Positions 40,015-54,436 of a DNA stretch of 64,000 nucleotides are shown one piece after another; the first letter of the stretch is position 1, and each line of letters begins with the position of its first letter. Source of the stretch: Cupriavidus taiwanensis (GTDB lineage: Bacteria > Pseudomonadota > Gammaproteobacteria > Burkholderiales > Burkholderiaceae); NCBI RefSeq assembly GCF_900250115.1, contig NZ_LT984803.1, forward strand, positions 1,391,583 through 1,455,582, given 5' to 3'. Made by a program: the position numbers and the translations under genes. The notes beneath the pieces are model-generated. The model saw only the letters and a program-made list of their open reading frames with translations. It made no database searches and was not told where the DNA came from.

Positions 40015-40090
40015 GGGTGCTTAGCTCAGTTGGTAGAGCGGCGCCCTTACAAGGCGTAGGTCGGGGGTTCGAACCCCTCAGCACCCACCA
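40015..40090 (+). tRNA. tRNA-Val (anticodon TAC); island attachment site
   Basis: A complete 76-base tRNA starting GGGTGCTTAGCTCAG and ending in encoded CCA. The acceptor stem GGGTGCT/AGCACCC is perfect. The anticodon loop CTTACAA has TAC at 34-36, and the T arm is GGGGGTTCGAACCCCT. Its 3' half, with the downstream terminator, is repeated at 53788-53887, so it served as the insertion site of the genomic island that follows. Confidence 0.97.
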
Positions 40091-40109
40091 ACGTTCGATC
40101 GATGAAATC

Positions 40110-40140
40110 AAGGACTTGGAGTGATCCAGGTCCTTTTTTT
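40110..40140 (+). terminator. Terminator of tRNA-Val
   Basis: AAGGACTTGGA/TCCAGGTCCTT (one G-T pair), loop GTGA, then seven or more Ts. The same hairpin follows the tRNA copy at 53857-53887. Confidence 0.92.
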
Positions 40141-40260
40141 ATGCCCGTTTTACCACCCGACAGCGGAGCCTAAGGCAGTCTCTGTGGCCGACACTATCGC
40201 CATCAATGCGATGACCGGCTGCGCCGACCGAGTTTCGCGGGGGCCAGCGAAGGGGTTTGC

Positions 40261-40623
40261 TCACCCCACCAGCAGTTTCGCAAAACTCAGCTCATGGCCG
40301 TCGGGATCGCTGATATGGAAATACCGCTCGCCCCACTCGGCATCGCGCGGGGCGTCCTCGGGACGCAGCCCGTGTGCGAGCGCCCGTTGGTGGATGGCGT
40401 CGACATTGTCGACATGGAAAATGATGCGTCCCCACCACGACCATTGCCGGCTGGATGGCTGCGCAATCAGGTTGAGATAGCCCGTGCCTACGTGGAAGCT
40501 GGTGAATTCCGCATCAGAACCTCCATAGCGGATCTGAAATCCGAGCGTCTGGTAGAAGGCAACGGCTCGTGACATGTCGTGGGTGGCAAGTGTCACGGCA
40601 TTGATCGAGGAAATCATCGGCAT
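40261..40623 (-). CDS. VOC-superfamily (glyoxalase/bleomycin resistance-like) protein
   Basis: A 120-residue two-module VOC protein. The first module starts INAVTLATHDMSRAVAFYQ. The second has WGRIIFHVDNVDAIHQRA and ends with the YFHISDPDGHELSFAK block. Metal-ligand type residues (His in THDM and FHV, Glu in HELSF) are visible, but no substrate can be named; members include glyoxalases, dioxygenases and resistance proteins. ATG 40623 is used, with ATG 40617 nearly as good. It is the first gene inside the island and faces the tRNA. Confidence 0.82.
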   Translation of the reverse strand: MPMISSINAVTLATHDMSRAVAFYQTLGFQIRYGGSDAEFTSFHVGTGYLNLIAQPSSRQWSWWGRIIFHVDNVDAIHQRALAHGLRPEDAPRDAEWGERYFHISDPDGHELSFAKLLVG

Positions 40624-41023
40624 TGGGGGCGTGTTTAACCGGACCAGATCAGGCTAGATCCGGATTTTCACCGGAATCCACCGCCGCCCGAACTGGCGCC
40701 GCGTGCGGATGCGCCAATGCCCTCGCCGGTCGCTGGGGGGGCGGCTGAGTTCAGTATAGGCCCCGTGAATGCGCCAAGGGCGCGCAGTATGAGCGCCCGC
40801 AGGAGGTCAACCAGCGTTTTGCTGCGATGGTTTTCGTCTGCTGGGACGCCCCGTCCATGACTGTACCTCGCTGTGCCCAGATTGCTTTCGAACCCGCGCA
40901 TGCTATTCCGATCGGGTTGGCACAGGTGGATCGTTTTCCGATATACCCGAATCGCCATTCCCTATTAGCCAGACCACTGTCGTCTCCATAGACTCAACAC
41001 AGTTTCATCCAACTGGAGTAGAA
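40624..41023. other. 400-base gap upstream of the DsbA-fold isomerase gene
   Basis: No supported gene. TTGGCA (40917-40922) with GATATA (40940-40945) at 17-base spacing could be the promoter of the plus-strand gene at 41024. A run of A/G-poor sequence around 40680-40760 has no coding look. Confidence 0.4.
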
Positions 41024-41623
41024 ATGGACAAGAAGCGAGTTGACCTGTACTGGGATGTCGGCAGCACTAATACCTACTTCGCCATCAAGCTGATCAAGCC
41101 GATCATTGAGCGCCATGACGCAGAACTTGTTCTGCATCCCTACAATCTGGGCTATGTCTTCCGGAACAACGAATATGAGCTGATGAAGGAACCGAAGTCG
41201 AAACTCCGGTACCGCAAACGGGATCTGATGCGCTGGGCCGAAAAGTACAACCTTCCGTTTCAGATCCCCCGGCAGTTCCCGATCAAGTCCAGCCGGGCGC
41301 TTCGTGGCTCGCTTGCGATGCGACGCAAAGGCCTCGAGCTGGCGTTTGTCGAGCGGGTGATGGAAGCATACTGGGAGCGCGGCGATGCCAGCATCGTCGA
41401 GTTTGCCGGCCTGCGACCGATCGTCGAGGCGCTAGGCGTTGACTTCGCCTGGTTCGAAGAGCTTGCCGCGAGCGACGAGATTGGCGCCGAGCTGGCGCGA
41501 AGCACGGACGCAGCGGTCGAGCGTGGGGTTTTTGGGGTGCCGATGATGTATGTGGGAGACGAAATGTTCTGGGGGAAGGATCGCCTCGACTTCATGGAAG
41601 AGGAACTTGCGCGCACCGCGTAG
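41024..41623 (+). CDS. DsbA-fold protein, 2-hydroxychromene-2-carboxylate isomerase/kappa-GST type
   Basis: A 199-residue thioredoxin-fold protein. The N-terminal YWDVGSTNTYFAIKLI has Ser at the active position where DsbA has CxxC, as in HCCA isomerase and kappa-class GSTs, which use glutathione. The cis-Pro block GVFGVPMMYVGDEMFWGKDR and the C-terminal LDFMEEEL are family hallmarks. GGAG at 41013-41016 serves ATG 41024. Known relatives isomerise naphthalene-pathway intermediates or disulfides; the local role is inferred to be glutathione-dependent catabolism with the GST and reductase 3-6 kb downstream. Confidence 0.87.
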   Translation: MDKKRVDLYWDVGSTNTYFAIKLIKPIIERHDAELVLHPYNLGYVFRNNEYELMKEPKSKLRYRKRDLMRWAEKYNLPFQIPRQFPIKSSRALRGSLAMRRKGLELAFVERVMEAYWERGDASIVEFAGLRPIVEALGVDFAWFEELAASDEIGAELARSTDAAVERGVFGVPMMYVGDEMFWGKDRLDFMEEELARTA

Positions 41624-41849
41624 GAGATCGCACGACGGCCTGCGCAGCGGTCTGGCTCCGACCGCTGGGGAGGCCGTTCTCACCAGAATCCTGTCCCGCC
41701 ACTGATCCTCGGCAACTCACCCCATTGCTTCCTGGCTGCAAAGCCATCGTGCCGGTAGCCACCGACAAGCACGGTCAGCACGCATTGTCGTGCCTCGTCC
41801 CAGACGGAGCGAAGAAGGGCGGCAACCGGCGGCGCAGCCCTGGTCCTGC

Positions 41850-43085
41850 TCAAATGATGTTGCGTTCTCGCAGCCGCTGGAACTCGGCGGCATCTACGCC
41901 GGCCATTTCCCGCAGGATCTCTTCCGTGTGTGCCCCCGGTATGGGCGCCGGCGTGTCATAGCCGACGTCTGCATCGCCAAATTGCAAGGGGAATGACGCC
42001 GCTTTGACATGCATCGTTGCCTTTGCGAGCGGGTTCCACAGCGATACGGCCATGTTCCGCGCAACGATCTGATCCCAGGCGAGTACGTCATCGATCGTCC
42101 GTACCGGACTGCACGGAATCCTGGCGGACCGCATCTGCTGCTCGATCTCCGCAGTAGGCAGCGCCGATGTCCACTTCGAAACGATCTCGTCAACTGTCGC
42201 ATTGTTCGACAAGCGCCATGAGACGGACATGATGTCGGGATCATCCTTGAGGTCGGACCGGCCCATGAGGTCCAGCAGGGTGCTCCAGTCATCGTTGCTG
42301 GCGGCCCCGATGGTCACCCAGCCATCCGCGCTCTGGTACGCGTTGAAGGGGGAGAATCGCATGATGCGGTTGCCTTGCTGGAAGGAGAGGCCCAGTTCGC
42401 GATAGCAATCCAGCGGCTCGTCGAGGATCAAGGACAGCAGGCAGTCCGTCATGGAAACATCCACCGACTGTCCATGGCCGGTGCGCTGGCGGTAGTTCAA
42501 TGCCGCGACGATCCCGAACGCGGCGAACAGGCCGGCAATCGCATCCGAAAGCGGCGAGCCCGCCTTCGTGGGCCCGGCGCCTGGTTGACCCGTGATGCTC
42601 ATCAAGCCGGCGGCCGCTTGTACCATCAGATCATAGGCCTTGAGGTTTTTTGCAGGGCCTGTGGAACCGTATCCAGTCAGCGAGCAGTAGACCAGGGATG
42701 GATTCACTTCGCGCAGCATGTCATAGCCAATGCCAAGCCGAGCGGCGACGCCCGCGCTGAAATTCTCCACCACGACATCAGCTTGCCTGGACATACGCAA
42801 GAAGAGCTCCTTGCCGTCCGCGCTCTTCAGGTTCAGCGTGGCGGACTTCTTCGAGCGCGCCCGCTTCAGGTAGGCGATGCCCATGTCCTCCTGGGTACGT
42901 CTTTCGAAGGAGACGCCATGCGGGCCGGCAAACGGTGGTGAAAATGCGGTCGGATCCCCGCCGTCCGGATCGTCGATCTTGATGACTTCCGCACCGAGCC
43001 CGGCGAGAAACAGCGTGCATTGAGGGCCGGAGAAGAACCGGGTAAGGTCAAGTATCTTGACGCCGTCGAGAATCCGTTTGGTCAT
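41850..43085 (-). CDS. Family III CoA-transferase (CaiB/BaiF), first copy
   Basis: A 411-residue formyl-CoA-transferase-fold protein. N-terminal DLTRFFSGPQCTLFLAGLGAEVIKID is typical. The nucleophilic aspartate is Asp181 in GSPLSDAIAGLF. ENFSAGVAARLGIGYDML and YCSLTGYG are further family blocks. Such enzymes move CoA between carboxylic acids; substrates include oxalate, carnitine, succinate/benzylsuccinate and itaconate. It is followed on the left by a 226-base gap. Its 5' end is 100 bases after the stop of the LysR gene on the same strand, so co-transcription is plausible. Confidence 0.9.
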   Translation of the reverse strand: MTKRILDGVKILDLTRFFSGPQCTLFLAGLGAEVIKIDDPDGGDPTAFSPPFAGPHGVSFERRTQEDMGIAYLKRARSKKSATLNLKSADGKELFLRMSRQADVVVENFSAGVAARLGIGYDMLREVNPSLVYCSLTGYGSTGPAKNLKAYDLMVQAAAGLMSITGQPGAGPTKAGSPLSDAIAGLFAAFGIVAALNYRQRTGHGQSVDVSMTDCLLSLILDEPLDCYRELGLSFQQGNRIMRFSPFNAYQSADGWVTIGAASNDDWSTLLDLMGRSDLKDDPDIMSVSWRLSNNATVDEIVSKWTSALPTAEIEQQMRSARIPCSPVRTIDDVLAWDQIVARNMAVSLWNPLAKATMHVKAASFPLQFGDADVGYDTPAPIPGAHTEEILREMAGVDAAEFQRLRERNII

Positions 43086-43185
43086 GGGTTGCCGTTTGCC
43101 TGTTTAGACGCTTCGAAAGTCTAGACACGCAACAGTGCAACCGGCCAATAGGACTTTGCGGTGACGGTATTGCGATTCCGTATGG

Positions 43186-44136
43186 CTAATCGATTCTCGA
43201 CGCGCCGGGCCATGCGCCTTCGGCAACCAGCGCCGCAGCGGTCTCGCGAATCAGTTCCATGATCCGGCGCGCGGCGGTACTCAGCGGCATGATGTCGAAG
43301 GTGCAAAGCGAAAGGCGTCGTTGCAGCGCAGCACCGGCGATCCGTTGCACGGTGAGGCCCTCGGTGCCCCCGGGGATCGAAGGCGACAAGATCGTCGAGC
43401 CGACGCCGCTTGCGACGACCGCGCGAATCGTCGCGAGAGAATCGAGTTCCGCCAACACGACCGGCCGTTGGCCCGCAGCTTCGAATGCCTCGTCGATAAT
43501 CTGTCGCGTGATGTTGGATTTCCCGGGAAGGATCAGGGGCCGTCGTGCCGCTGCCTCGACGGAGATCTCTTCCGGCGCCGCGCCTTCCGCTGCTTGGGAC
43601 GAAAGCAGAAACAGGTTCTCGGTCAGCAGGGGGCTGACCTCAAGATGTGCCCCGAGCCTTGTCTCGCGTACCGCACCGGCTCCATCCACGCGCTCAAACA
43701 ACAGGCTCATCTCGATCCGCCCGTTTACCACCAGCTCCTGAAGGTGTCCGCTGAGGCTTTGCGTGATCCGGAGCTGGATATCGGGGTACTGCGTGGCTGC
43801 CGCGGCCAGCAGTCTGGGCGCGAGTATCGTCGCTGCGCTGGTCGGAAGCCCGACCGATACGGTTCCCTGCGGATGCTCGCCGGCATGCTGGACATCGTTC
43901 TTCATCAACTCCGCCTGGCGCAACATGGCGCGTGCGTGGCGATAGAAGACTTCTCCCGCGTCCGTCGCAACCACGCCGCGGGCGCTCCTGGCCAGCAACT
44001 TCACCTTGAGCTCGTCTTCGAGCTTGGCGATTTGCTGGCTGAGCGCTGGCTGTGCGGTGTACAGGTCGGCGGCCGCACGGGACACGCTTCCCAACTCGAC
44101 GATGCGTACGAAGTACTTAAGTTGTCGGAATTCCAT
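43186..44136 (-). CDS. LysR-family regulator (Nac/Cbl-like)
   Basis: A 316-residue regulator. The winged-helix domain starts MEFRQLKYFVRIVELGSVSR, with AAADLYTAQPALSQQIAKLE as recognition region, close to the Nac/Cbl subgroup. The effector domain (about 90-300) has TVSVGLPTSAATILAPRLL. It is divergent from the glutathione transferase gene (about 100-base gap), the usual arrangement for control of that operon and of itself. The effector is unknown but probably an intermediate of the local pathway. Confidence 0.92.
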   Translation of the reverse strand: MEFRQLKYFVRIVELGSVSRAAADLYTAQPALSQQIAKLEDELKVKLLARSARGVVATDAGEVFYRHARAMLRQAELMKNDVQHAGEHPQGTVSVGLPTSAATILAPRLLAAAATQYPDIQLRITQSLSGHLQELVVNGRIEMSLLFERVDGAGAVRETRLGAHLEVSPLLTENLFLLSSQAAEGAAPEEISVEAAARRPLILPGKSNITRQIIDEAFEAAGQRPVVLAELDSLATIRAVVASGVGSTILSPSIPGGTEGLTVQRIAGAALQRRLSLCTFDIMPLSTAARRIMELIRETAAALVAEGAWPGASRID

Positions 44137-44237
44137 GGCTCATTGTATGGCGCGCCAGCCGGACGGTGCCAGCCATAAGTTTTCGACATGCCCCAAGCGG
44201 GACACAGTATTGGCGCAACGATGGTGGCATTTCTAAG

Positions 44238-44972
44238 ATGGCTCCATCAGTAACGAGCCACCTCACCGAGATGATCGACCTCTACTTCTGGAGCACGCCG
44301 AACGGCTACAAGGTTTCCATTCTCCTTGAAGAGCTGCGGATGCCCTACAACGTCATACCGGTGCACATCGGCAAGGGGCAGCAGTTCGCGCCGGAATTCC
44401 TGGCGATCAGCCCGAACAACAAGATACCTGCCATTGTCGATCATGAAGGCCCGGACGGACAGCCGATTGCGATGTTCGAGTCGGGCGCCATCATGATGTA
44501 CCTGGGGGAGAAAAGCGGCTACCAGTTCATGCCGCAAGACACGCGCAGGCGCTATGAGGTGCTGCAGTGGCTGATGTTCCAGATGGGTGGCGTGGGACCG
44601 ATGCTTGGGCAGGCCCATCATTTCCGCAAGTACGCGCCGGAGAAGATCGACTACGCGATTGACCGTTATACCGGCGAGGCACGTCGGCTCTACACGGTGA
44701 TCGATCGCCGGCTCGCTGATTCCGAATACCTGGCGGGCGATTACTCGATCGCGGACATGGCCACCTATCCGTGGCTGCGTGCCCACAAATGGCAAGGCCA
44801 GGACCTTGCGGACTTTCCCAATCTCGAGCGCTGGTACTCGGCGGTACGCGAACGTCCCGCGGTTCAGCGCGGTATTGCCGTGCTCGCCGAGAAGGTCGAC
44901 AAGACCGGTGCCAAGCCGAGCGGCGAGCGCTGGGACAACCTGTTTGGCAAGAACCAGTTCACCACGCGTTAG
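44238..44972 (+). CDS. Glutathione transferase, nu-class/YfcG-like disulfide reductase
   Basis: A 244-residue GST. MIDLYFWSTPNGYKVSILLEE closely follows the YfcG N-terminus, including the TPNG active-site turn. ISPNNKIPAIVDHEGPDGQP, FESGAIMMYL and GGVGPMLGQAHHF continue the match. Nu-class GSTs bind two glutathiones and reduce disulfides or remove glutathione from adducts. The start is uncertain: ATG 44238 adds 11 residues before MIDLYFW at 44271. It heads a plus-strand operon GST, CoA-transferase, glutathione reductase, Bug protein. Confidence 0.92.
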   Translation: MAPSVTSHLTEMIDLYFWSTPNGYKVSILLEELRMPYNVIPVHIGKGQQFAPEFLAISPNNKIPAIVDHEGPDGQPIAMFESGAIMMYLGEKSGYQFMPQDTRRRYEVLQWLMFQMGGVGPMLGQAHHFRKYAPEKIDYAIDRYTGEARRLYTVIDRRLADSEYLAGDYSIADMATYPWLRAHKWQGQDLADFPNLERWYSAVRERPAVQRGIAVLAEKVDKTGAKPSGERWDNLFGKNQFTTR

Positions 44973-44982
44973 GAGAAACACC

Positions 44983-46269
44983 GTGTCGCAAACCAGGACT
45001 CCAATGCTTACCGGCTTCCGCGTGCTGGATATCACCCAGATCGTTGCAGGGCCGACCTGCACCCGCATTCTTGCCGAGATGGGCGCGGAGGTCGTCAAGC
45101 TCGAGCTCGCCCCGTTTGGCGACCGCACCCGCGTCGGCGGCCTGCGCAGCCGGAAGCCGGAGCATAAGCGTTGTTCCCAAAGCACCTACTTTGTCCAGCA
45201 CAACCACTCGAAGAAAAGCCTGGCGCTGAATCTCAAGGACAACAAGGCGCGCGAGCTTGTGCTCAAAATGATCCCGCAGTTCGACGTGCTGGTGGAAAAC
45301 TTCTCGCCAGGCGTGATGGATCGTTTCGGGCTTGGCTACGACGTGCTGAAGACCATCAATCCGCGCCTGGTCATGTGCTCGATTTCTCTTGCGGGGCAGA
45401 AGGGCGTCCTGGCGAGCAAGCCGGGATACGACTACGTTGCGCAGGCATACGCCGGCATCACGGACCTGATCGGCGATGCCGAAGGCAGTCCCGCCCTGAT
45501 CACCATGGCGATCGGGGACGCATCCACCGGGGTCGCCGCCGCCATGGCAATCGGCTTCGCGTTGCTGCATCGGGAGCGAACCGGTGAGGGGCAGTACCTC
45601 GAGACGTCGCTGCTGGATACCTATTTCAACATGCATGAGGTAGCCGTTCCGCGCGTCAGCCTGCGCCAGGGCTATGAACCAACGCGCACCGGATCGCAGC
45701 ATCCCGACGGTGGGCCGACCGGCATCTTCCGTTGCGGGGACGGTACTTACCTGACGCTGGCGACCCTTCCGCACCAATGGGAGCAGGTTGCGTTGGCCCT
45801 GGGACGCGACGACCTCCTGACCGATCCGCGCTTTGCCACCGCTGCGCTGCGCCGCGACAACAACGACCAGCTCAAAGAGATTGTGGAGTCTTGGCTTGCT
45901 ACCTTCGCGTCCAGGGACGCTGCCATCGAAGCACTGGAGCGGCAGCGGATTCCTTGCGCGCCGGTGCTCACGCTGCGCGAGGCCATGAACCATCCCCATC
46001 TGCGTGAGCGCGGGGTCGTACGCGCGGTGCGTGACCCTTACCTAGGCGAATTCCAGATCCCGGGTCCGGCGGCGAGATTCTCCGCCTGGGAGTATCCGTC
46101 TTCCTTGAAGGCTGACCTGCTGGGCGAACACAACGAGCAAGTCCTGAAGGCGTTCGCCGGGCTTGAGGATGCGGAGATCGACGCCTTGTATGCCGAGGGC
46201 GTGCTGGTGCGAGACCGGCTGCTCGAGCCGAACGCGGTGCCGACAGCAGAAGCTGAGGTCTCGCGATGA
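44983..46269 (+). CDS. Family III CoA-transferase, second copy
   Basis: A 428-residue CaiB/BaiF enzyme. FRVLDITQIVAGPTCTRILAEMGAEVVKLE is split by the start choice as usual for the family. Asp179 in AIGDASTGVAAAMAIG is the likely nucleophile. AGGAGA at 44971-44976 and GTG 44983 fit; the stop of the GST gene overlaps that site, and glutathione reductase overlaps its end by four bases. It probably activates the acid on which the neighbouring glutathione enzymes act. That is inference from the operon. Confidence 0.9.
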   Translation: MSQTRTPMLTGFRVLDITQIVAGPTCTRILAEMGAEVVKLELAPFGDRTRVGGLRSRKPEHKRCSQSTYFVQHNHSKKSLALNLKDNKARELVLKMIPQFDVLVENFSPGVMDRFGLGYDVLKTINPRLVMCSISLAGQKGVLASKPGYDYVAQAYAGITDLIGDAEGSPALITMAIGDASTGVAAAMAIGFALLHRERTGEGQYLETSLLDTYFNMHEVAVPRVSLRQGYEPTRTGSQHPDGGPTGIFRCGDGTYLTLATLPHQWEQVALALGRDDLLTDPRFATAALRRDNNDQLKEIVESWLATFASRDAAIEALERQRIPCAPVLTLREAMNHPHLRERGVVRAVRDPYLGEFQIPGPAARFSAWEYPSSLKADLLGEHNEQVLKAFAGLEDAEIDALYAEGVLVRDRLLEPNAVPTAEAEVSR

Positions 46270-47627
46270 GCGCCGTGGATAACAGCATGGACGCTTTCGA
46301 TCTGCTCGTCATTGGTGCGGGCTCTGGCGGCGTAAGGGCGGCACGTACCGCTGCAGCGCTCGGCGCGCGGGTTGCGATCGCGGAACAGTCGCGCGTAGGC
46401 GGCACCTGCGTGATTCGCGGCTGTGTGCCGAAGAAGCTCCTGGTCACGGCGAGCCGATACCGCTCCGAGGCAACCGACGCAATCGGCTTTGGCTGGAGCT
46501 TTGAGGCCAGAGGCCACAACTGGCGTGTGCTTCGTGATGGCATCGCCGAAGAAGTCTGCCGGCTCGAGCAGCTGTATCGCAAGGGACTGGAAAACGCCCA
46601 CGTGACGATCCTAGACGAGACCGCGTCGGTGGAGGGCAGTGGCCGTGTGCGGCTCGCATCGGGCAGATCGGTGCGGGCTGAAAACATCATCGTCGCCACG
46701 GGCGCGTTACCTTCGCCGCTTGGCATTCCCGGGGCGGAGCATTGCATCACCTCGGACGATGTCTTCGGGCTGCCGGCTCTGCCCCCTCGTATCGTGATCG
46801 TGGGCGGTGGCTATATCGCGCTCGAATTCGCAGGAATTTTCAAGGGGCTGGGCGCCGATGTCACGCTACTGCACCGCGGCGCCGCGGTGCTGCGAGGGTT
46901 CGATGCGGATGTGCAGCAAGGCGTTGCCGGCGCGTACCTCGAGCAGGGCATCCGGATCCGATTCAATACCGCGGTCCGTTCCATCGAGGCCTCGCCCGCC
47001 GGCTATTGCGTGACGGACCACACCGGGAACCGTTTCGATTGTGATCTCGTCCTGAACGCGACCGGCCGCCTGCCAAACACGATGGCCGCAGCGGGAGTCC
47101 TTGCGCTGAACCAGGGCGGGGCCATCGTGGTGGATGATCGATATGCGACCTCGGTGGCGGGCGTTTATGCCATCGGGGATGCGATCGGGCAGTTGAACCT
47201 GACGCCGGTGGCGATCCGGCAAGGACAGTGGCTGGCCGAGTCGCTCTTTGGGACACCGCGGCTTTGTTTGCCCGACTTCGGGTTGACACCGACGGCAGTG
47301 TTCTCCACGCCGGAGCTTGCCAGCGTGGGACTGACCGAGCAGCAGGCACGCGCGACGCTTGCCGATATCACGGTCTACCGCACCAGCTTCCGTCCCATGC
47401 GAGCTTCGCTGGCAGGGAGCCTTGAGCGCGTCATGATGAAGCTGGTCGTCGACAAACACAGTGACCGGGTCGTTGGCCTGCACATGCTGGGGCGTGATGC
47501 TGCCGAGATCGTTCAGATGGGCGCGATCTCGCTGCAGCGGGGCATCACGAAACGCGAGTTCGACCGGACCGTCGCATTGCATCCCAGCGTCGCGGAAGAG
47601 TTCGTCACCATGAGCAACCATGACTGA
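46266..47627 (+). CDS. gor: Glutathione-disulfide reductase
   Basis: A 453-residue FAD/NADPH disulfide reductase. The FAD loop is VIGAGSGGVRAARTAA. The redox pair is Cys48/Cys53 in GGTCVIRGCVPKK. The NADPH site is GGGYIALEFAGIFKGLG, and the catalytic His439 is in LHPSVAEEF. These fit glutathione reductase rather than dihydrolipoamide dehydrogenase. The ATGA overlap with the CoA-transferase gene shows coupling. A reductase dedicated to this operon implies that the pathway makes oxidised glutathione. gor is named by motif, not by proven function. Confidence 0.9.
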   Translation: MSAVDNSMDAFDLLVIGAGSGGVRAARTAAALGARVAIAEQSRVGGTCVIRGCVPKKLLVTASRYRSEATDAIGFGWSFEARGHNWRVLRDGIAEEVCRLEQLYRKGLENAHVTILDETASVEGSGRVRLASGRSVRAENIIVATGALPSPLGIPGAEHCITSDDVFGLPALPPRIVIVGGGYIALEFAGIFKGLGADVTLLHRGAAVLRGFDADVQQGVAGAYLEQGIRIRFNTAVRSIEASPAGYCVTDHTGNRFDCDLVLNATGRLPNTMAAAGVLALNQGGAIVVDDRYATSVAGVYAIGDAIGQLNLTPVAIRQGQWLAESLFGTPRLCLPDFGLTPTAVFSTPELASVGLTEQQARATLADITVYRTSFRPMRASLAGSLERVMMKLVVDKHSDRVVGLHMLGRDAAEIVQMGAISLQRGITKREFDRTVALHPSVAEEFVTMSNHD

Positions 47628-47691
47628 AGGTGGCGGGGCGGAGCAGCAAGCGTAGTCATCACACAAAGAGCAGGACGCAAGGAGACAGGCT

Positions 47692-48657
47692 ATGAGATTG
47701 ATTACAGCATTCGCAATAGGATGGCTGGCATGCAGTGCTTCGTTCGCGGAATCCTTCCCTTCCCGGCCACTGACCCTGGTGGTGCCGTTTTCGCCCGGTG
47801 GCCCGACAGACGTTGTGGCCCGTCACCTGAGCGCCGCGATGGGACGGTCACTGGGGCAATCGGTGGTCGTGGAGAATCGTGCCAGCACGGGCGGCATTGT
47901 CGGTTCGGAGTTCGTTGTGCGGGCCGAGCCCAATGGCTATACGCTATTGATTCATAACATCGGCATGGCGACCTTGCCCGCGCTGACCAAAAGGCTTCGA
48001 TTCGACCCGACCAGGGACTTTGACTATATCGGGCTCGTTGCCGATGTGCCGATGACATTGGTCGCGCGCCCGAACCTTGCACCGTCCGGGTTCAGCGAAC
48101 TGCGGGCCTATATCGCGGCCAATCAGCGGAAGATCAATCTCGCCAATGCGGGCATCGGCACAGCGTCACACCTGTGCGGGCTGATGCTGATGAGCCAGCT
48201 CCATGCGGCAATGACGAGCATCCCGTATAAGGGCGCTGCGCCGGCCATGGTCGATGTCCAGGGCGGGCAGGTCGATTTGTTATGCGATCAAGTGACGACC
48301 ACGCTCCAGCCGATCAATACCGGCCGGGTCAAGGCGTACGGCAGCACGACGTCGCAAAGGCTGGCCGCGTTGCCCAAGCTGCCGACCCTGCACGAGCAGG
48401 GCCTGGATCAGTTTGAAGTGACAGTCTGGCATGGCGTCTACGCGCCCAAGGGCACGCCCAGGCCAGTCGTCGCCAAGCTGGTCAAGGCTCTGCAGGATGC
48501 GGTTGGTGATGCTGCCTTCCGGGAGGGAATGCTGAAGCTCGGCGCAATCCCGGTAGCGGTTGACCGCGCTACGCCCGAAGCACTGTCGCAGCAATTGAGA
48601 AGCGAGATTGCCCGATGGACACCGGTCATCAAACAGGCCAACGCCTTTATCGACTAA
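47692..48657 (+). CDS. Bug-family (TctC) periplasmic binding protein, first copy
   Basis: A 321-residue exported solute-binding protein. The signal peptide is MRLITAFAIGWLACSASFA. The Bug signature is RPLTLVVPFSPGGPTDVVAR, and SIPYKGAAPAMVDVQGGQVDLLCDQ is the second ligand-loop region. Bug proteins bind carboxylates or amides for tripartite tricarboxylate transporters, often without cognate membrane genes nearby, as here. AAGGAGA precedes ATG 47692. It is probably the last clear gene of the GST operon, and its ligand is likely the pathway's substrate acid. Confidence 0.92.
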   Translation: MRLITAFAIGWLACSASFAESFPSRPLTLVVPFSPGGPTDVVARHLSAAMGRSLGQSVVVENRASTGGIVGSEFVVRAEPNGYTLLIHNIGMATLPALTKRLRFDPTRDFDYIGLVADVPMTLVARPNLAPSGFSELRAYIAANQRKINLANAGIGTASHLCGLMLMSQLHAAMTSIPYKGAAPAMVDVQGGQVDLLCDQVTTTLQPINTGRVKAYGSTTSQRLAALPKLPTLHEQGLDQFEVTVWHGVYAPKGTPRPVVAKLVKALQDAVGDAAFREGMLKLGAIPVAVDRATPEALSQQLRSEIARWTPVIKQANAFID

Positions 48658-48692: not shown

Positions 48693-48986
48693 ATGGGCAA
48701 CGATTCCCGGCAGACGGAAGCAGGCGCGCGCAGCGAAGTCGTGCGGCGGATTGCCATGGAGGCGGCCGCGCTGATGATGTTCAAAGGAACGTCGGCGGCG
48801 ACGGCGATTTCCGCGGCGGTTGCGCATCATGTTTCCGATGTACAGGGCGGGCGCGAGTGCAGGGGAACATTGGCGGAGGTCGAGTCGACCTGGATCCCGC
48901 CAGGCAGAGACCAGGAGGTCCTCGAGGCGTCCACCGGGATTCTGGCGGAGGTCGAAATGCGCCTTTCCGAGACGACGTGGGATTGA
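48693..48986 (+). CDS. Hypothetical protein (97 residues)
   Basis: Starts MGNDSRQTEAGARSEVVRRI with GGGAG a few bases upstream, 35 bases after the Bug gene. The first half is helical and Ala-rich (AMEAAALMMFKGTSAATAI). No family is recognised. It may be a real small gene at the end of the operon or decayed DNA; the neighbouring remnant at 49447 argues for caution. Its TGA overlaps the ATG of the next open frame (TGATG). Confidence 0.4.
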   Translation: MGNDSRQTEAGARSEVVRRIAMEAAALMMFKGTSAATAISAAVAHHVSDVQGGRECRGTLAEVESTWIPPGRDQEVLEASTGILAEVEMRLSETTWD

Positions 48987-49360
48987 TGGCAGGCAGCGCG
49001 ATGGCCGGCCTTGGTCGTGCGGACATGCCATGCACGCCGGCCGAGCTGCTTCACCGGATCCGGGCCATGCTGAAGCAGCTAAGCTTCGATGAGGCCAGCG
49101 CCGCGAAGACAGAGGCATCCGGCATCGAGCGTCGCCTCGCGACGCGGTTGAGCCAGGCCATTGCGGTAGGCTCAGCGCTGGAAATTGCCGTGGTTTTAGG
49201 TTGCGGTGCCGAACTCTCGCTGTTCCCCGACGATGCTGTGCTCGAGCGGTGCACGACAACCGTACGGACGGCAGGGCAATGCACACTGGTGGGTGCGATC
49301 TGGGCAGTGCGGCATCGATGCGTGCGAGGGGGAGGGGCGGTCCGGAGATTCTCGCTCTAG
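48986..49360 (+). CDS. Hypothetical protein overlapping the preceding one
   Basis: A 124-residue open frame starting at the TGATG overlap. The first 70 residues look helical (CTPAELLHRIRAMLKQL, IERRLATRLSQAIAVGSAL). The tail is Arg/Cys-rich and not protein-like. No family is recognised. The stop-start overlap is suggestive, but codon use is unlike the surrounding genes, so this is weak. Confidence 0.3.
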   Translation: MAGSAMAGLGRADMPCTPAELLHRIRAMLKQLSFDEASAAKTEASGIERRLATRLSQAIAVGSALEIAVVLGCGAELSLFPDDAVLERCTTTVRTAGQCTLVGAIWAVRHRCVRGGGAVRRFSL

Positions 49361-49446: not shown

Positions 49447-49521
49447 CGCGAGGCCGCTATGGCAAAGCTCGTGGCAACAGAGTCGGCTCGGCGTGTCGTC
49501 GATGCTGCAGCCCAGCTTTTA
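49447..49521 (+). pseudogene. Remnant of an acyl-CoA dehydrogenase C-terminal domain
   Basis: The plus-strand frame reads REAAMAKLVATESARRVV, then DAAAQLL. This matches the helix of acyl-CoA dehydrogenases usually written EAAMAKLFASE..RVV..AVQ. Nothing recognisable lies before it, and after it the frame runs antisense into the hydratase gene. It is a scrap of about 25 codons, taken as evidence that a dehydrogenase gene was once here. Confidence 0.5.
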
Positions 49522-50301
49522 ACCCCAGTTCGGGCGACGTTTCTCTACGAAGGCAGTGATGCCTTCGCGCGCATCATCGGTGGCCGCGACGCGGCAGAAC
49601 GTATCGACTGCATAGGAAACACCACGACGGTAGTCGCTGTCGGCGGCCCGATGGAATGCTGCTCTGCCAATGCTCATCGCAGAGGCTGACTTGGCGGCCA
49701 GATTTGCGGCCAGTGACCGCGCCTCCTCGAGTACCGTTTCCGTGGGGACCACACGATTAACCAGATGCAAGGCCTGCGCCTCGCTCGCGTTAAAGGAGCG
49801 CCCGGTAAAGAGCAAGTCGAATGCGACGTGACGGCCGACGATGCGCGGCAAATGGGTAAAGTGGATAGCCGGGAGCATGCCGACGTCAATTTCCGGGTAT
49901 CCGAAGCTGGCATCCTCGGCGGCCACAATCAGATCGCAGGAGATAGCGAGGGTCATGCCGCCGCCGCGCGCGGCGCCACTCACCGCGGCGATGGAAGGTT
50001 TGCCAAGACGATACTGTGCTTCTGACAGCTGGACGTAAAGCTTGTCCAGAAGCGTGTGGACGGTATCCGCCGATGCGCCTTGCAGTGCGGCAATATCAAG
50101 CCCGGCGCAGAATCGCTTGGGCAACGAACTCGCAATGATCACTGCCCGAGCCGCGTCATCAGAGGCAGCGCGATTCAGCGCCTGAATCAGCGCGTCGACC
50201 ATTGGAACGGTAAGCGCATTGACCGGAGCGTGGTCGAGGAGAATTTCGGCGACGTGGTCGCGGACAGTGTAGGTGACCAAGGACATAGTCTGCTCAATCA
50301 T
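49519..50301 (-). CDS. Enoyl-CoA hydratase/isomerase family protein
   Basis: A 260-residue crotonase-fold protein. The oxyanion-hole strands are RFCAGLDIAAL and AAVSGAARGGGMTLAISCD. The second catalytic block FGYPEIDVGMLPAIHFTHL keeps its Glu. The first Glu of classic hydratases (GGGCELA) is replaced by Thr (GGGMTLA), so it may be an isomerase, a hydrolase or a hydratase of unusual substrates. ATG 50301 lies eight bases after the CoA-transferase stop; ATG 50286 is the alternative. It is last in the minus-strand operon. Confidence 0.88.
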   Translation of the reverse strand: MIEQTMSLVTYTVRDHVAEILLDHAPVNALTVPMVDALIQALNRAASDDAARAVIIASSLPKRFCAGLDIAALQGASADTVHTLLDKLYVQLSEAQYRLGKPSIAAVSGAARGGGMTLAISCDLIVAAEDASFGYPEIDVGMLPAIHFTHLPRIVGRHVAFDLLFTGRSFNASEAQALHLVNRVVPTETVLEEARSLAANLAAKSASAMSIGRAAFHRAADSDYRRGVSYAVDTFCRVAATDDAREGITAFVEKRRPNWG

Positions 50302-50309
50302 GGTGTGGT

Positions 50310-51518
50310 CTAGGCGGCTGCCGCCGTTGCGGCAGAAGTCACGGCGCCGGTGTGGTACATGCCTTTAATCTGCCCTGGTGTGAACCCAGCCTCGTGCAGG
50401 ATTTCGTCAGTGTGTTCGCCGAGCAGCGGGGCGGGACGACTTGCCCGGCGTGCTCCTCGGCCGAAGCGGACGGGCAAGCCGATGTTCGAGACGGTACCCA
50501 GGACGGGGTGCTCGGTCTCGACAATCAATTGTCGGGCCTTGACTTGAGGGTGTGCCAACGCTTGATCCAGCGTCTGAATCGGCGAGTAGGGCACCCCGAT
50601 TTTCTGGAGCGCTTCCAGCCAGTATGCGAGCGGCTGGGTCGAGAGGCGAGACTGCACCAGTTCTACCGTACGGGCGAAGTTCTGTACGCGCGCGGCATTG
50701 GTGGCAAAGTCCGGATGATCCACGCAATCTTCGAGGCCGGCGACCGCGCAGAAGCGCTTCCATTGAGCGTCATTGCCAACACCCAGCATAAGGGGGCCAT
50801 CAGCGGCCTCGAACGCCTGGTAGGGCGACATGGAAGGATGCGCAGTACCCATCCGTTGCGGCGCCTTCCCGGTACGCCAGTAGTTCTGCGCCATGTAGCC
50901 CATAAAGCCAAGGGCGGTCTCCATGAGCGCGACTTCGAGATACGTTCCCTTGCCTGTGCTGTGCCGCTCGAGCAGGGCAGCCAGGATGCCGCTGAGGGCG
51001 TGCATGCCTGTGCCGATGTCGACTGGCGAAAAGCTCGCCCGCGCAAATTTTCCGCCGGGCTCGCCCATGGTGCTGATCATCCCGCTGAACGCCTGCAGCA
51101 TCACATCATAGCCGGGTTCGTTCCCGAGGGGGCCGTCGCGCCCATAGCCGGATATCTCGCAGTAAATCAAGCGGGGATTCAATGCGCTCAGGGTTGCGTA
51201 GTCCACGCCGAGTTTCGCCGCGGTGCCCCCGCCGAAGCCCTGCAGCACGATATCCGCGTTAGACGCAAGTTGTTGAACAACACGTTGGCCCGCTTCGCTC
51301 TTGAGATCCACGGCGATGCTGCGCTTGTTGTGGTTGACAGCAAGGAACACCGCCGACTGACCCGCATCCTGCGGCACCCACCCGCGTGTGTCGTCGCCGG
51401 AACCCGGTGGCTCCACCTTAATGACATCTGCGCCCAACTCCCCGAGGTATTGACCGCATAGCGGGCCTGCCAGGACCTTGCTCAGGTCCAGGACCTGAAT
51501 ACCTTTCAATGGTTGCAT
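50310..51518 (-). CDS. Family III CoA-transferase, third copy
   Basis: A 402-residue CaiB/BaiF enzyme: VLDLSKVLAGPLCGQYLGEL, NHNKRSIAVDLKSEAGQ, and the likely nucleophile Asp167 in FSPVDIGTGMHAL. The C-terminus ends in an Ala-rich tail. ATG 51518 (MQPLKGIQVLDL) has AAGGAA about ten bases upstream. An ATG at 51539 overlapping the Bug stop is also possible and would couple the two. It sits between Bug protein and enoyl-CoA hydratase, which suggests uptake, activation and hydration of one acid. Confidence 0.9.
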   Translation of the reverse strand: MQPLKGIQVLDLSKVLAGPLCGQYLGELGADVIKVEPPGSGDDTRGWVPQDAGQSAVFLAVNHNKRSIAVDLKSEAGQRVVQQLASNADIVLQGFGGGTAAKLGVDYATLSALNPRLIYCEISGYGRDGPLGNEPGYDVMLQAFSGMISTMGEPGGKFARASFSPVDIGTGMHALSGILAALLERHSTGKGTYLEVALMETALGFMGYMAQNYWRTGKAPQRMGTAHPSMSPYQAFEAADGPLMLGVGNDAQWKRFCAVAGLEDCVDHPDFATNAARVQNFARTVELVQSRLSTQPLAYWLEALQKIGVPYSPIQTLDQALAHPQVKARQLIVETEHPVLGTVSNIGLPVRFGRGARRASRPAPLLGEHTDEILHEAGFTPGQIKGMYHTGAVTSAATAAAA

Positions 51519-51535
51519 GGCTTGAGATTCCTTTT

Positions 51536-52510
51536 TCATTCCGGCTGGATGCCAAGTCCACGCGCAACGTTCGTCCAGCGCTCGGCGTCCGTTCGGACGA
51601 AGCTGACGAGCTGATCGGGACGGGTTGGCATCGGCTCTGCGCCACGATTGCGTAGCGCCGCAACGTATTCGGGGTCATTGACGGCCTTTGCCGCAGCCGC
51701 TCGCAAACGGTCGACCGCTGCCTTAGGAGTCTGTGCAGATGCCTGTAGGGAGAACCAGAACTTCAGGTCTGCGCCTGGGTATCCGGCCTCTTTGAGCGTC
51801 GGGACGTCCGGCAGCATGGGGGATCGCTGCGAAGCCGTAATGGCAAGTGGCTTCAGCTTGCCGCCCTGTATCTGGCCGATGCAAGTCGTAAAGGAGTCAA
51901 ACACAAAATCGACCTGGCCGGCCATCACGTCCGTGAGCGCCGGCGAGCTGCCTTTATAGGGCACCGCAACCGCTTGGAAGTCCGCCTTTTTCTGAAGCAG
52001 GGAGCCATAAATGTGCGGCGACGATCCAGCACCAAAGGTGGCATATGTCAGTGCGCCAGACTTCGCCTTCCCCAGTTGGACCAGATCGGCTAGCGTCTTT
52101 GCCTTGAGTTTGTCGGGGTGCACGACCAGGACGTTTGGCATGGAGCCCGTCGTAGCGATGGGCACGAAATCTCGTCCTGGCTGAAAGCGGGCGTGCGGGT
52201 ACATCAACGGATTCACCGCTTGCATTGCCACGGTGTTATGCAAGAGGGTGTAGCCATCGTTGCCGCTATCGAGCACATGCTGAGCACCGATGTTGCCGCT
52301 GGCGCCAGGGCGATTGTCAATGACCACCGCTTGGCCCAGTTCCTTGGACAAGGCCGTGGCCAGCAAGCGAGCGATAAAGTCGGTGGGCCCGCCGGCGGCA
52401 AATGGCACAACGATCCGTACTGGCTTGGTCGGCCATTCAGCGGCAAAAATGGGGCCCGCCATGACGGCCGCAGCCGCTCCAAGCACCAAGGTGCGTCGTC
52501 TCGGATTCAT
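51536..52510 (-). CDS. Bug-family (TctC) periplasmic binding protein, second copy
   Basis: A 324-residue solute-binding protein. The N-terminus MNPRRRTLVLGAAAAVMAGP has an RRR start like a Tat signal, ending IFAAE. KPVRIVVPFAAGGPTDFIAR is the Bug signature and AVPYKGSSPALTDVMAGQVDFVFD the second loop. AGGAGAC precedes ATG 52510. It heads the minus-strand operon with CoA-transferase and hydratase, divergent from a LysR gene. The ligand is unknown. Confidence 0.92.
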   Translation of the reverse strand: MNPRRRTLVLGAAAAVMAGPIFAAEWPTKPVRIVVPFAAGGPTDFIARLLATALSKELGQAVVIDNRPGASGNIGAQHVLDSGNDGYTLLHNTVAMQAVNPLMYPHARFQPGRDFVPIATTGSMPNVLVVHPDKLKAKTLADLVQLGKAKSGALTYATFGAGSSPHIYGSLLQKKADFQAVAVPYKGSSPALTDVMAGQVDFVFDSFTTCIGQIQGGKLKPLAITASQRSPMLPDVPTLKEAGYPGADLKFWFSLQASAQTPKAAVDRLRAAAAKAVNDPEYVAALRNRGAEPMPTRPDQLVSFVRTDAERWTNVARGLGIQPE

Positions 52511-52549
52511 GCTTGTCTCCTGTGATTCTGCGCAAGCATGCCCATTTGC

Positions 52550-52605
52550 GAGATATAAATCCAAGACAGAATATAGATATCCGATATAAGATTTCGGTAT
52601 ATCTC
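52550..52605. promoter_or_regulatory. Inverted repeat in the Bug-LysR divergent region
   Basis: Perfect arms GAGATATA (52550-52557) and TATATCTC (52598-52605) enclose a second imperfect dyad, ATATCCGA/TTCGGTATAT. The block is strikingly A/T-rich in this genome. It lies between the two divergent starts, where a LysR regulator would bind. The arms are seen directly; the binding is inferred. Confidence 0.6.
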
Positions 52606-52623
52606 ACGATTGACGCGTGCCCC

Positions 52624-53607
52624 ATGGCTCTCGAACTACGTACCCTGCGGGGATTCGTCGCGGTTTGTGCAGCTGGCTCCATTTCCCGAGCCGCCGAGCG
52701 CTTGCACATCGCCCAGCCGGCGTTGAGCCTGCAGATGAAGAATCTGGAGGAGGAGTTCGGCGCGGACCTGCTCGAACGGACCCCGCGCGGCGTGGTCGCG
52801 ACCGCAGCGGGAGAAATGCTGCGGTCGCATGCGACGGACATCCTGCGGCGAGTCGAGGTCGCGTACGAGGACGTCAGAACAGCCATCAAGCAGCCTCAAG
52901 GCAGGGTCGCAGTGGGGCTGCCGCAGTCGTTGGCAAAGCTGCTAACAGTGCCGCTCGTGAAGGAAGTCTGCGCGGAATGGCCGGGGATTGATCTCCAGAT
53001 CATCGAGCAGAGCACCGGATATATTCCGCAAGGGCTGCTGACTGGCCATCTGGACATTGGCATGACGTTCGGCGCTACGCCCGAGCCAGGGTTAAGAGCG
53101 GATCGCGTGCTTGAAGAGCGGCTGCTGCTTGTTGGCCCGCCGGGCGAGCTGTCCGCGCATGGGATAGGCGGCATCAGCGCTGCAGTCGGCGTCCCGTTTT
53201 CCCAACTGGGCCGCTATCCGTTAATTCTCCCTGCCGGACTACATGGTTTGCGTAGTCTCATCGACCGGTTCAGCGCGTCCCATGACACCGAGCTTCAGGT
53301 TATCGCCGAAGTGAATGCAATCCCGGAGCTCATTGCCCTTGCCGCAGCGGCGGCAGGCTTTACTATCCTGTCGCACGCATCAGTGCAAGAGGAGTGGCGA
53401 AGCGGGGTCGTGTCGTGCGGCCGTATCGCCGAAGAGGGAATCACGCGACAGGTGTACCTTTGCCGGGCGGCAACACTACCCGCCTCCTTGGCTGTGACGA
53501 CTGTATGGCAACGTGTTCTCGCGATTACCAAACGGCTAGTGGACGGGGGGGAGTGGCCGGTTTACCGCTTCAATGCCGGAGGAGAAGGCATGGGTATCCA
53601 GCGGTGA
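52624..53607 (+). CDS. LysR-family regulator of the bug-CoA-transferase-hydratase operon
   Basis: A 327-residue LysR protein. The helix-turn-helix region is LRTLRGFVAVCAAGSISR with AERLHIAQPALSLQMKNLEEE. The effector domain begins GRVAVGLPQSLAKLLTVPLV. ATG 52624 follows the family start (MALELRTLRGF). It is divergent from the Bug gene with a 113-base shared region containing the 52550-52605 repeat. It is the last intact gene before the right end of the island. Confidence 0.93.
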   Translation: MALELRTLRGFVAVCAAGSISRAAERLHIAQPALSLQMKNLEEEFGADLLERTPRGVVATAAGEMLRSHATDILRRVEVAYEDVRTAIKQPQGRVAVGLPQSLAKLLTVPLVKEVCAEWPGIDLQIIEQSTGYIPQGLLTGHLDIGMTFGATPEPGLRADRVLEERLLLVGPPGELSAHGIGGISAAVGVPFSQLGRYPLILPAGLHGLRSLIDRFSASHDTELQVIAEVNAIPELIALAAAAAGFTILSHASVQEEWRSGVVSCGRIAEEGITRQVYLCRAATLPASLAVTTVWQRVLAITKRLVDGGEWPVYRFNAGGEGMGIQR

Positions 53608-53787
53608 GGGGCCTGCTTCAGGTCGAATCCGGGGTAAAGGATTTGAGGGGGCAGGTATCCAGCACATCGAAATGCGCCCGTGGATCGGGTAACGGGAGGT
53701 AGCCAAAACATTCGGCCTCGCTCCGGCACTGATGGTACGAAAAGTTGGTGGCGCTTGTAAGTCAATGGTTTATAAGGAAGTTCAATT

Positions 53788-53835
53788 CCCTTGCAAGGCG
53801 TAGGTCGGGGGGTTCGAACCCCTCAGCATCCACCA
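53788..53835 (+). repeat. Degenerate copy of the tRNA-Val 3' half (attachment-site repeat)
   Basis: The copy starts in the anticodon loop (CCCTTGCAAGGCG against CCCTTACAAGGCG) and runs to the CCA end. It has one extra G before the T loop and one C-to-T change in the acceptor. The 5' half of the tRNA is absent. It matches tRNA-Val 40047-40090 and marks the right end of the island. Confidence 0.88.
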
Positions 53836-53856
53836 CCGCACGGCCGGCAAGAATCA

Positions 53857-53887
53857 AAGGACTTGGAGCGATCCAGGTCCTTTTTTT
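53857..53887 (+). terminator. Second copy of the tRNA-Val terminator
   Basis: AAGGACTTGGA/TCCAGGTCCTT with loop GCGA and a T run. It is the same hairpin as at 40110-40140, so the duplicated block extends past the tRNA itself; after it both copies read on with TTTTTTTATGCC. Confidence 0.9.
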
Positions 53888-53915
53888 ATGCCTGTCTCAC
53901 CACCGGCAGGATCTG

Positions 53916-54116
53916 GTGTTCCAGTGGTGGAATGGGGATGCGTCTCCGAAAGCCCGAGCCAAAACGTTGGACTATCTCTCAAAGCGGTTTGACGACATCT
54001 TCGGGCAGGCCGGCTGTGTCGGACTGAAATTCCACGACCTGCGGCACGAGGCGGTGAGCCGGCTCTTTGAAAAGGCGACCCTGGCCGAGAGCCAAATCAT
54101 GAAGATCAGCGGTCAT
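53916..54116 (+). pseudogene. Tyrosine-recombinase (integrase) fragment
   Basis: The plus-strand frame contains LVFQWWNGDASPKA, then FHDLRHEAVSRLFEKATLAE and KISGH. These are the HxLR and GH boxes of the catalytic domain of phage-type integrases common at tRNA genes. The N-terminal half, the first catalytic Arg and the tyrosine are missing; after ISGH the expected block is garbled. It is a remnant only 80 bases beyond the tRNA-Val repeat, probably the integrase of an older element at this tRNA. Confidence 0.75.
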
Positions 54117-54436
54117 AGGTTTCGTGAAGCCTATTCATATCGGGGATATGGTCATGCCGCTCACCCTCAAACTGGCGCGGGCTATTTTGAAGAACCGAAT
54201 GCCCCTTGTGGCAGGGCGTACGCCGCCTCAAGCTTCAGTCGTTCGCCTCGAGACTTGAGTGCCTGGATGCTCAGAGAGGGAGTAGCACTGACAAACCTGA
54301 TTTGCGAGCAGCGTCTGATGCGAGCAATGTTTGATGTGTCGCAAGGCAAGCAACATGGCCGGTATGGATTTGCTTGTCGCGAACGCCGTAATACCGTCTT
54401 CTACGACCGCTTTGGCGAGACCCACTCTTGCTTTGA
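54117..54436. other. Gap between integrase fragment and cytochrome operon
   Basis: About 320 bases without a supported gene. The plus-strand frame stays open but shows no recognisable protein. The minus strand has a 65-codon open frame (54228-54425) of no known family. It is probably decayed mobile DNA. No terminator for the cytochrome operon is obvious. Confidence 0.45.

Follow-up and report, generated by a model that had tools for sequence, protein, structure and literature searches.

A putative horizontally moving cassette pairing a nu-class glutathione S-transferase with CoA-transferases and a DsbA-fold protein in Cupriavidus taiwanensis

Results

A seven-gene cassette with glutathione and CoA enzymes

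A 64,000-nucleotide stretch of the 7.0-Mb, three-contig Cupriavidus taiwanensis genome (contig NZ_LT984803.1, positions 1,391,583 to 1,455,582; hereafter the window, whose own coordinates are used below) contains seven genes coding for a DsbA-fold protein, two family III coenzyme A (CoA) transferases (CoAT1 and CoAT2), a LysR regulator, a nu-type glutathione S-transferase (GST), a glutathione-disulfide reductase (GR) and a Bug/TctC periplasmic binding protein. We found this gene group again in other Cupriavidus genomes and, complete or reduced, in further genera, and from its gene content we give an even chance to the reading that it moves horizontally and serves to break down an exogenous organic acid, combining CoA activation, glutathione chemistry and recycling of glutathione disulfide (GSSG). 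The genes and the one intergenic region of interest are:

41024–41623, + strand: DsbA-fold, 2-hydroxychromene-2-carboxylate (HCCA) isomerase-like protein; DSBA domain match, profile match to 2imd
41850–43085, − strand: CoAT1, family III CoA-transferase; CoA_transf_3 match, Asp181 at the position of Asp169 in Frc
43186–44136, − strand: LysR regulator, divergent from the GST operon; profile match
44137–44237, no strand assigned: LysR–GST intergenic region; conserved block, probable regulator site or promoter
44238–44972, + strand: nu-type (YfcG-like) GST; profile match and residues
44983–46269, + strand: CoAT2, family III CoA-transferase; CoA_transf_3 match, GTG start, Asp179 at the position of Asp169 in Frc
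46266–47627, + strand: GR, pyridine nucleotide-disulphide oxidoreductase, NF004776; accessory
47692–48657, + strand: Bug/TctC periplasmic binding protein (Bug1); nearest solved relative by sequence BugD (2f5x)

ORF calling and profile scans bore out the open reading frames (ORFs) and families named in the original prediction, which had been made from the DNA letters alone, as well as the divergent LysR gene and the tight packing of GST, CoAT2 and GR: the GST stop codon overlaps the ribosome-binding site of CoAT2 (TAGGAGA), the CoAT2 and GR genes overlap by ATGA, and the gap between LysR and GST measures 101 bases. The start of CoAT2, previously placed at ATG 45004, is most likely GTG 44983, which gives a protein of 428 aa, a length shared by several homologues.

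The cassette is conserved in Cupriavidus and recurs in other genera

The original prediction had proposed a search for conserved synteny, with the lack of a shared neighbourhood as its first refuting outcome; the seven genes stand together again in other genomes, so that outcome did not arise. Among 60 genomes of the genus, five carry all seven genes, with CoAT2 found at E-values up to 1e-85 and GST and GR orthologues adjoining it in each. Besides the window's own genome these are G019, G025, G054 and G035 (loci L060, L061, L062 and L063), in which GST is 94, 89, 87 and 79% identical to the window's protein (next best match in the 119 genomes searched, 66%), CoAT2 92, 88, 86 and 68% (38% or less elsewhere in the 59 other genomes of the genus, among the matches listed) and GR 83, 78, 76 and 54% (45–49% for the other full-length matches in these 59 genomes; G024 has GR fragments matching at 52 and 56% along some 200 residues). 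The gene order in the five copies is DsbA, CoAT1, LysR, GST, CoAT2, GR and Bug, with the exception of G035, where LysR and GST have the DsbA gene between them, immediately upstream of GST. The GR gene comes straight after CoAT2 in these five copies and in Polaromonas, and overlaps it in the window, G019 and G025.

A wider scan of 84,980 species, one genome each, with two short CoAT2 motifs, narrow and thus giving a lower bound, returned ten loci: G019 and G054 again (L071 and L072, on the same contigs), one 37% match (L080) and seven new loci with CoAT2 at least 58% identical, in Hydrogenophaga (L073), Polaromonas (L074) and Alphaproteobacteria (L075–L079). The cassette is complete in Polaromonas, lacks GR in Hydrogenophaga, where the Bug gene directly follows CoAT2, and is reduced in the Alphaproteobacteria. 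Among the 12 loci with CoAT2 identity of at least 58% (the window, L060–L063 and L073–L079; besides the repeated L071 and L072, the count leaves out L080, L070 with 43% and L096), the DsbA-fold protein was present in all 12 (in L075 by translation, confirmed by Pfam, and in L076 by translation alone), GST in ten, CoAT1 in eight, LysR (at least 56% identity) and Bug1 in seven each, and GR in six, the contigs of L078 and L076 ending about 0.5 and 2.8 kb past CoAT2. On these counts for the DsbA-fold protein, GST and GR, the core of the cassette is the DsbA-fold protein and a CoA-transferase, together with the nu-GST, and GR is accessory. The original prediction is thus supported in that the genes form a conserved unit with a divergent LysR gene, but its emphasis shifts away from GR and towards the DsbA-fold protein, a partner in every locus, which it had put "alongside".

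For comparison, the surroundings of 25 paralogous GSTs (L011–L035), reaching at most some 1.5 kb to each side, were inspected as a control for matches at E 1e-8: none had a CoA-transferase, GR, LysR or DsbA match, and one Bug and one ECH match were seen, perhaps at the same locus. The seven cassette genes are under purifying selection, with ratios of nonsynonymous to synonymous substitution (dN/dS) of 0.05–0.21 against G019 (the highest for GR) and 0.04–0.11 against G054. The recurrence in other genomes together with the low dN/dS against G019 indicates that the grouping of the genes is more than chance. A block in the LysR–GST gap is likewise kept in six genomes of three genera (the window, G019, G025, G054, Hydrogenophaga and Polaromonas) with differing surroundings; G035, with its DsbA gene at this place, was omitted from the comparison.

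In a tree of 38 GST sequences, the ten cassette GSTs stand apart from 25 paralogues (support 90/89; mark of the tool 95/80) and the three alphaproteobacterial cassette GSTs group together (95/99). The alphaproteobacterial sequences also group in the CoAT2 tree of 16 sequences (94/93, or 94/95 with L070). There, four Cupriavidus sequences join Hydrogenophaga (82/92) and G035 joins after them, a hint that G035 acquired its copy separately. No plasmid copies of the cassette were seen: CoAT2 matches turned up in 1,202 plasmid records, but all stay under 60% identity (best 38%).

The surroundings of the cassette differ between its hosts. In G019 (L060:13958–18195), two acyl-CoA dehydrogenases, one of them pimeloyl-CoA dehydrogenase-like and below the cut-off, and an acyl-CoA synthetase lie past the Bug gene. 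In G025 (L061:515–5276), the genes flanking the cassette code for a Rieske oxygenase resembling anthranilate dioxygenase and an MFS transporter of the aromatic-acid type, both below cut-offs. In G035 (L063:13999–19489), it is followed by a 371-aa protein of unassigned family, a UGSC-family protein, a CoA-transferase, a Pyr_redox_2 flavoprotein and a Bug protein; the flavoprotein is thioredoxin-reductase-like by eye and may be a further disulfide reductase that has a CoA-transferase and a Bug protein for neighbours.

Pairs of GR and nu-type GST were also met outside the cassette. At six loci with GR matches of 45–49% (L064–L069) the surroundings differ from the cassette; at L064 GR adjoins a nu-type GST with no CoA-transferase match. 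Genome G043 has GR adjoining a nu-type GST. On a plasmid of Xanthobacter dioxanivorans, a nu-type GST (60% identical to the window GST) and GR (47%) lie four genes apart in one catabolic stretch (L101:2458–9681), among aldehyde dehydrogenase and glycolate oxidase-like genes; the species is named for dioxane.

Residues and families of the encoded proteins

The GST retains T20, N22, Q49, K62, I63, E81 and S82 in common with YfcG, and these match in kind and spacing the published glutathione contacts of NaGSTNu, the nu-class enzyme of Novosphingobium that acts in lignin beta-ether cleavage (PMC5892560). R143 is also shared with YfcG and is probably equivalent to Arg177 of NaGSTNu, and the L079 GST has Arg in place of Q49. 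The protein is 54% identical to E. coli YfcG and scores 242 bits against the YfcG equivalog model, below its cut-off of 332; by these marks it is a nu-class member rather than YfcG itself, in agreement with the class first assigned to it. E. coli YfcG has the same active-site residues, but the neighbours of yfcG differ, and the window's genome holds another YfcG-like gene (63%) elsewhere. Nu-class enzymes bind two molecules of glutathione (GSH) or one of GSSG, members including YfcG and YghU cleave a glutathionyl adduct in vitro, and the physiological roles of the class are described as largely unknown (PMC5892560).

The CoA-transferase assignments held as well: the catalytic Asp at Frc position 169 is kept in CoAT1 (D181), CoAT2 (D179) and a third enzyme of the window, CoAT3 (D174; see below). 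Gln17 of Frc is replaced by Phe, Val or Leu in the three proteins, so that by this mark they are not oxalate enzymes; all three fell below the cut-offs of the seven NCBIfam models listed and are not placed in the formyl-CoA:oxalate CoA-transferase family. IsoG and CaiB show a similar change at Gln17 (PMC10057887). GR exceeds the cut-off of the glutathione-disulfide reductase model NF004776 (493 versus 480 bits) and falls below those of TIGR01424 (517 of 606 bits) and TIGR01421 (365 of 556 bits); the window's genome holds another GR (41%) elsewhere. The DsbA-fold protein matches the solved isomerase 2imd over nearly its whole length (81 bits), with Ser14 aligned to Ser11 in the sequence profile. 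DsbA-fold proteins of the cassette fall into two subfamilies, the L077–L079 members being 24–27% identical to that of the window; the L079 protein, the one of these three that was tested, matches the same solved HCCA isomerases as the window's profile.

Comparison with known pathways

Among known systems, the nearest working analogue is the glutathione pathways for isoprene and styrene, minus their oxygenase. Gram-negative iso clusters contain a LysR gene, the Frc-type CoA-transferase IsoG, the GST IsoJ and the glutathione reductase GarB (PMC9804861, PMC10057887), and the cassette shares with the lower isoprene pathway of Variovorax sp. WS11 an Frc-type CoA-transferase, a GST, a cluster-borne GR, a LysR gene and a megaplasmid location. 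For IsoJ, a release of GSSG from the CoA thioester has been proposed, and no more than proposed. Loss of isoG or isoJ is not tolerated, but garB is dispensable (PMC9804861), in keeping with GR being accessory in the cassette. What IsoG and IsoJ do exactly is reported as uncertain, and the CoA donor of IsoG as unknown (PMC10057887). Unlike the isoprene pathway, the cassette has no monooxygenase, IsoI, IsoH or AldH, and has a Bug and a DsbA-fold protein instead. No monooxygenase, conjugating GST (IsoI/StyI) or IsoH was found among the genes scanned (40.2–54.5 kb), which places the cassette outside the isoprene/styrene family; the analogy that had been drawn to isoprene degradation is thus fair as to gene kinds and working mode and does not extend to membership.

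In the styrene cluster on plasmid pGCWB2 of Gordonia rubripertincta CWB2, a TPNG (Ure2pB/nu) GST, probably StyJ (PMC8552685), lies in one run with a CoA-transferase, and an FAD-dependent oxidoreductase is nearby. The window GST is 43% identical to this GST but nearer to YfcG; the reductase shows 28% identity over 260 residues, and the best relative of the other styrene-cluster GST in the window's genome (29%) lies outside the cassette. CoAT1, CoAT2 and CoAT3 are 30, 33 and 33% identical to the styrene CoA-transferase, near-equal values among which no counterpart stands out. Orthology to the styrene cluster was considered but found no support, with no sign of it for the CoA-transferases and a GST closer to YfcG. 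As judged from gene kinds alone for the iso clusters and from sequences for the styrene cluster, the likeness is one of gene kinds rather than demonstrated common descent.

Other systems share less. NaGSTNu is of the same class, but no beta-etherase was found among the genes scanned at the cassette. To our knowledge, the lignin beta-ether pathway has no CoA-transferase step. The HCCA isomerase 2imd is a distant match, and no naphthalene genes were among those scanned. The 3,3'-dithiodipropionate cluster of Advenella likewise has a LysR gene, a family III CoA-transferase and two TctC proteins, but its Mdo dioxygenase and Acd desulfinase are not among the cassette genes; the word glutathione is absent from the text of that paper (PMC5373536). 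This gene set and arrangement was not found in the one literature collection searched.

A putative pathway and its alternatives

Uptake of an acid, CoA transfer, glutathione chemistry and, where GR is present, GSSG recycling form the most economical reading of the cassette. The Bug protein would capture the acid in the periplasm and CoAT2, CoAT1 or both would transfer CoA onto it; the DsbA-fold enzyme, with glutathione, may then isomerise the unsaturated acid or acyl-CoA or form an adduct, from which the nu-GST would remove glutathione with a second GSH, yielding free acyl-CoA and GSSG. GSSG would be reduced to GSH by the dedicated GR in some hosts, a housekeeping GR sufficing in others, the acyl-CoA would pass to general beta-oxidation, and LysR would switch the cassette on. 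Acid uptake, a CoA thioester, removal or isomerisation of an adduct and recycling of GSSG had all been part of the original prediction; its gene kinds and its grouping of the genes stood, and the weight it gave to GR did not. Tentatively, the DsbA-fold enzyme and the nu-class GST could act in turn on an acyl-CoA, so that glutathione is added and then reductively removed with electrons from glutathione (GR, NADPH) instead of a flavoenzyme, which would be an undescribed route.

In favour of the catabolic reading are the conserved linkage of the genes, the DsbA-fold protein at all 12 loci, the grouping of the cassette GSTs apart from their paralogues, the outcome of the paralogue control, the retained nu-class glutathione contacts, the in vitro cleavage of a glutathionyl adduct by nu-class enzymes, and the nu-type GST and GR sharing a catabolic stretch in Xanthobacter dioxanivorans. 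Several findings weigh against it. We know of no enzyme in the cluster that makes a glutathione adduct from an acid. GST was not seen in L076, whose contig starts just upstream, or in L077, and GR is absent from L073, L075, L077 and L079, each with some 10 kb of downstream sequence, so that GSSG need not be a bulk product. Tree support is modest, the mark being reached by 3 of 35 inner branches for GST and 1 of 13 for CoAT2. The cassette was seldom met in the species sampled: with up to four best candidates scored per genome, CoAT2 was found in 1 of 398 genomes in the phylum search (the window's own), in 2 of 399 in the order search (the window's own and G081 at 43%) and in 1 of 399 in the search of the family of G118 (L096). 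Relatives of CoAT2 are, however, no rarity among collected proteins (2,105 at E-values up to 1e-100), the context of nearly all of them being unseen. Moreover, YfcG-like enzymes are known chiefly as in vitro disulfide reductases.

Glutathione could instead be a cofactor only, the DsbA-fold enzyme and GST interconverting the cis and trans forms of an unsaturated acid or acyl-CoA without net formation of GSSG, and GR only keeping the pool reduced. A DsbA-fold isomerase of this kind acts in naphthalene catabolism, and the constancy of the HCCA-isomerase-like protein (12/12 loci) makes glutathione-assisted isomerisation a serious rival; in line with it, GR is missing from several loci, and in L078 a fumarylacetoacetate-hydrolase-family gene lies divergently beside the DsbA-fold gene. 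A GR gene directly 3' of CoAT2, as in the five Cupriavidus copies and Polaromonas, is however not called for by such chemistry, and the binding of two GSH or one GSSG by nu-class enzymes favours redox chemistry (PMC5892560); we regard this explanation as possible but somewhat doubtful. It is unlikely that the cassette serves the catabolism of an organic disulfide or thiol acid, as for 3,3'-dithiodipropionate, in which GST would reduce the disulfide with two GSH, GR would recycle GSSG and the CoA-transferases would activate the product. The reduction of disulfides by YfcG and YghU in vitro (PMC5892560) and the LysR, family III CoA-transferase and TctC/Bug proteins shared with the Advenella cluster (PMC5373536) agree with it, but no thiol dioxygenase or desulfinase was found among the cluster genes scanned and the conserved HCCA-type protein is left unexplained. 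The 3-sulfinopropanoyl-CoA desulfinase model NF042439 exceeded its cut-off in one of the five cassette genomes (G054), and that the known desulfinase stays below it in the other four, the window's included (best 299 bits versus 600), makes this pathway less likely. Least probable, and in our view very improbable, is a stress operon in which GST, GR and the DsbA-fold protein counter stress from thiols or electrophiles, while the CoA-transferases and the Bug protein stand beside them by chance. The general redox character of GST and GR would fit it, but CoAT1 accompanies CoAT2 at eight of the 12 loci and Bug1 does so at seven, a CoA-transferase match occurs at none of the 25 paralogous GST loci, and the genome has its other GR and YfcG-like genes elsewhere.

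The cassette lies on a tRNA-Val island

The remaining features of the region are:

40015–40090, + strand: tRNA-Val (tac), the probable insertion target of the island
40044–40157, + strand: left direct repeat, 3' part of tRNA-Val and terminator; three blocks 92, 94 and 96% identical to 53788–53904
48693–48986, + strand: small ORF of 97 aa after the Bug gene; conserved in G019, G025 and G054 (59–72%)
49025–49360, + strand: second small ORF of 111 aa; 85% in G019, 48% elsewhere beside the cassette in G054
53788–53904, + strand: right direct repeat; the 13.8 kb between the copies are missing in G045

In G045, a single 3.8-kb locus contains both the lon–tRNA-Val side and the cytochrome c side and lacks the 13.8 kb between them. 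Together with the direct repeat at 40.04–53.90 kb, this empty site indicates that the cassette belongs to a 13.8-kb tRNA island. Among 12 other genomes with the cytochrome c gene, both island flanks were found in a short locus only in G045, the other 11 loci showing the cytochrome side alone. A weak tyrosine-integrase remnant (53745–54467) lies just outside the right repeat, with a sub-threshold Pfam match at about 53.9–54.2 kb (16.8 bits versus a cut-off of 27.1). It was rejected as the island's own integrase, which it probably is not, since the empty site of G045 contains part of it too.

The island carries a second catabolic set (49519–53607) of ECH, CoAT3, Bug2 and a divergent LysR2, which in G054 is also beside the cassette, on the opposite side, so that the two sets co-occur in different arrangements. 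At the left edge of the island lies a glyoxalase/VOC gene (40273–40632), to which none of the four other Cupriavidus loci has a match in the vicinity of the cassette. The two small ORFs returned 7 proteins (the window's own counted) and 3 proteins in a search of 5.8 billion proteins. In G019, G025 and G054 the first comes after the Bug gene, as does the second in G019; G054 has the 48% relative of the second upstream of its DsbA gene (L062:5086–5409), and neither ORF was found in G035; their dN/dS was 0.21–0.27, dS not being computable for one of them against G025. An acyl-CoA dehydrogenase remnant 3' of the Bug gene was rejected, as the stretch holds these two small ORFs, which other Cupriavidus share, and a tblastn search of the window with both G019 dehydrogenases returned nothing significant (best E 4.8).

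Discussion

The small mobile gene group described here, present in a few unrelated bacteria, pairs glutathione enzymes with CoA-loading enzymes and probably breaks down an acid. It links in one compact cassette a nu-class GST, a CoA-transferase and a DsbA-fold, probably GSH-dependent, enzyme. Through its Bug protein the substrate can be approached directly, and the cassette would provide a second, oxygenase-free system in which to address the roles of nu-class GSTs, IsoG and IsoJ.

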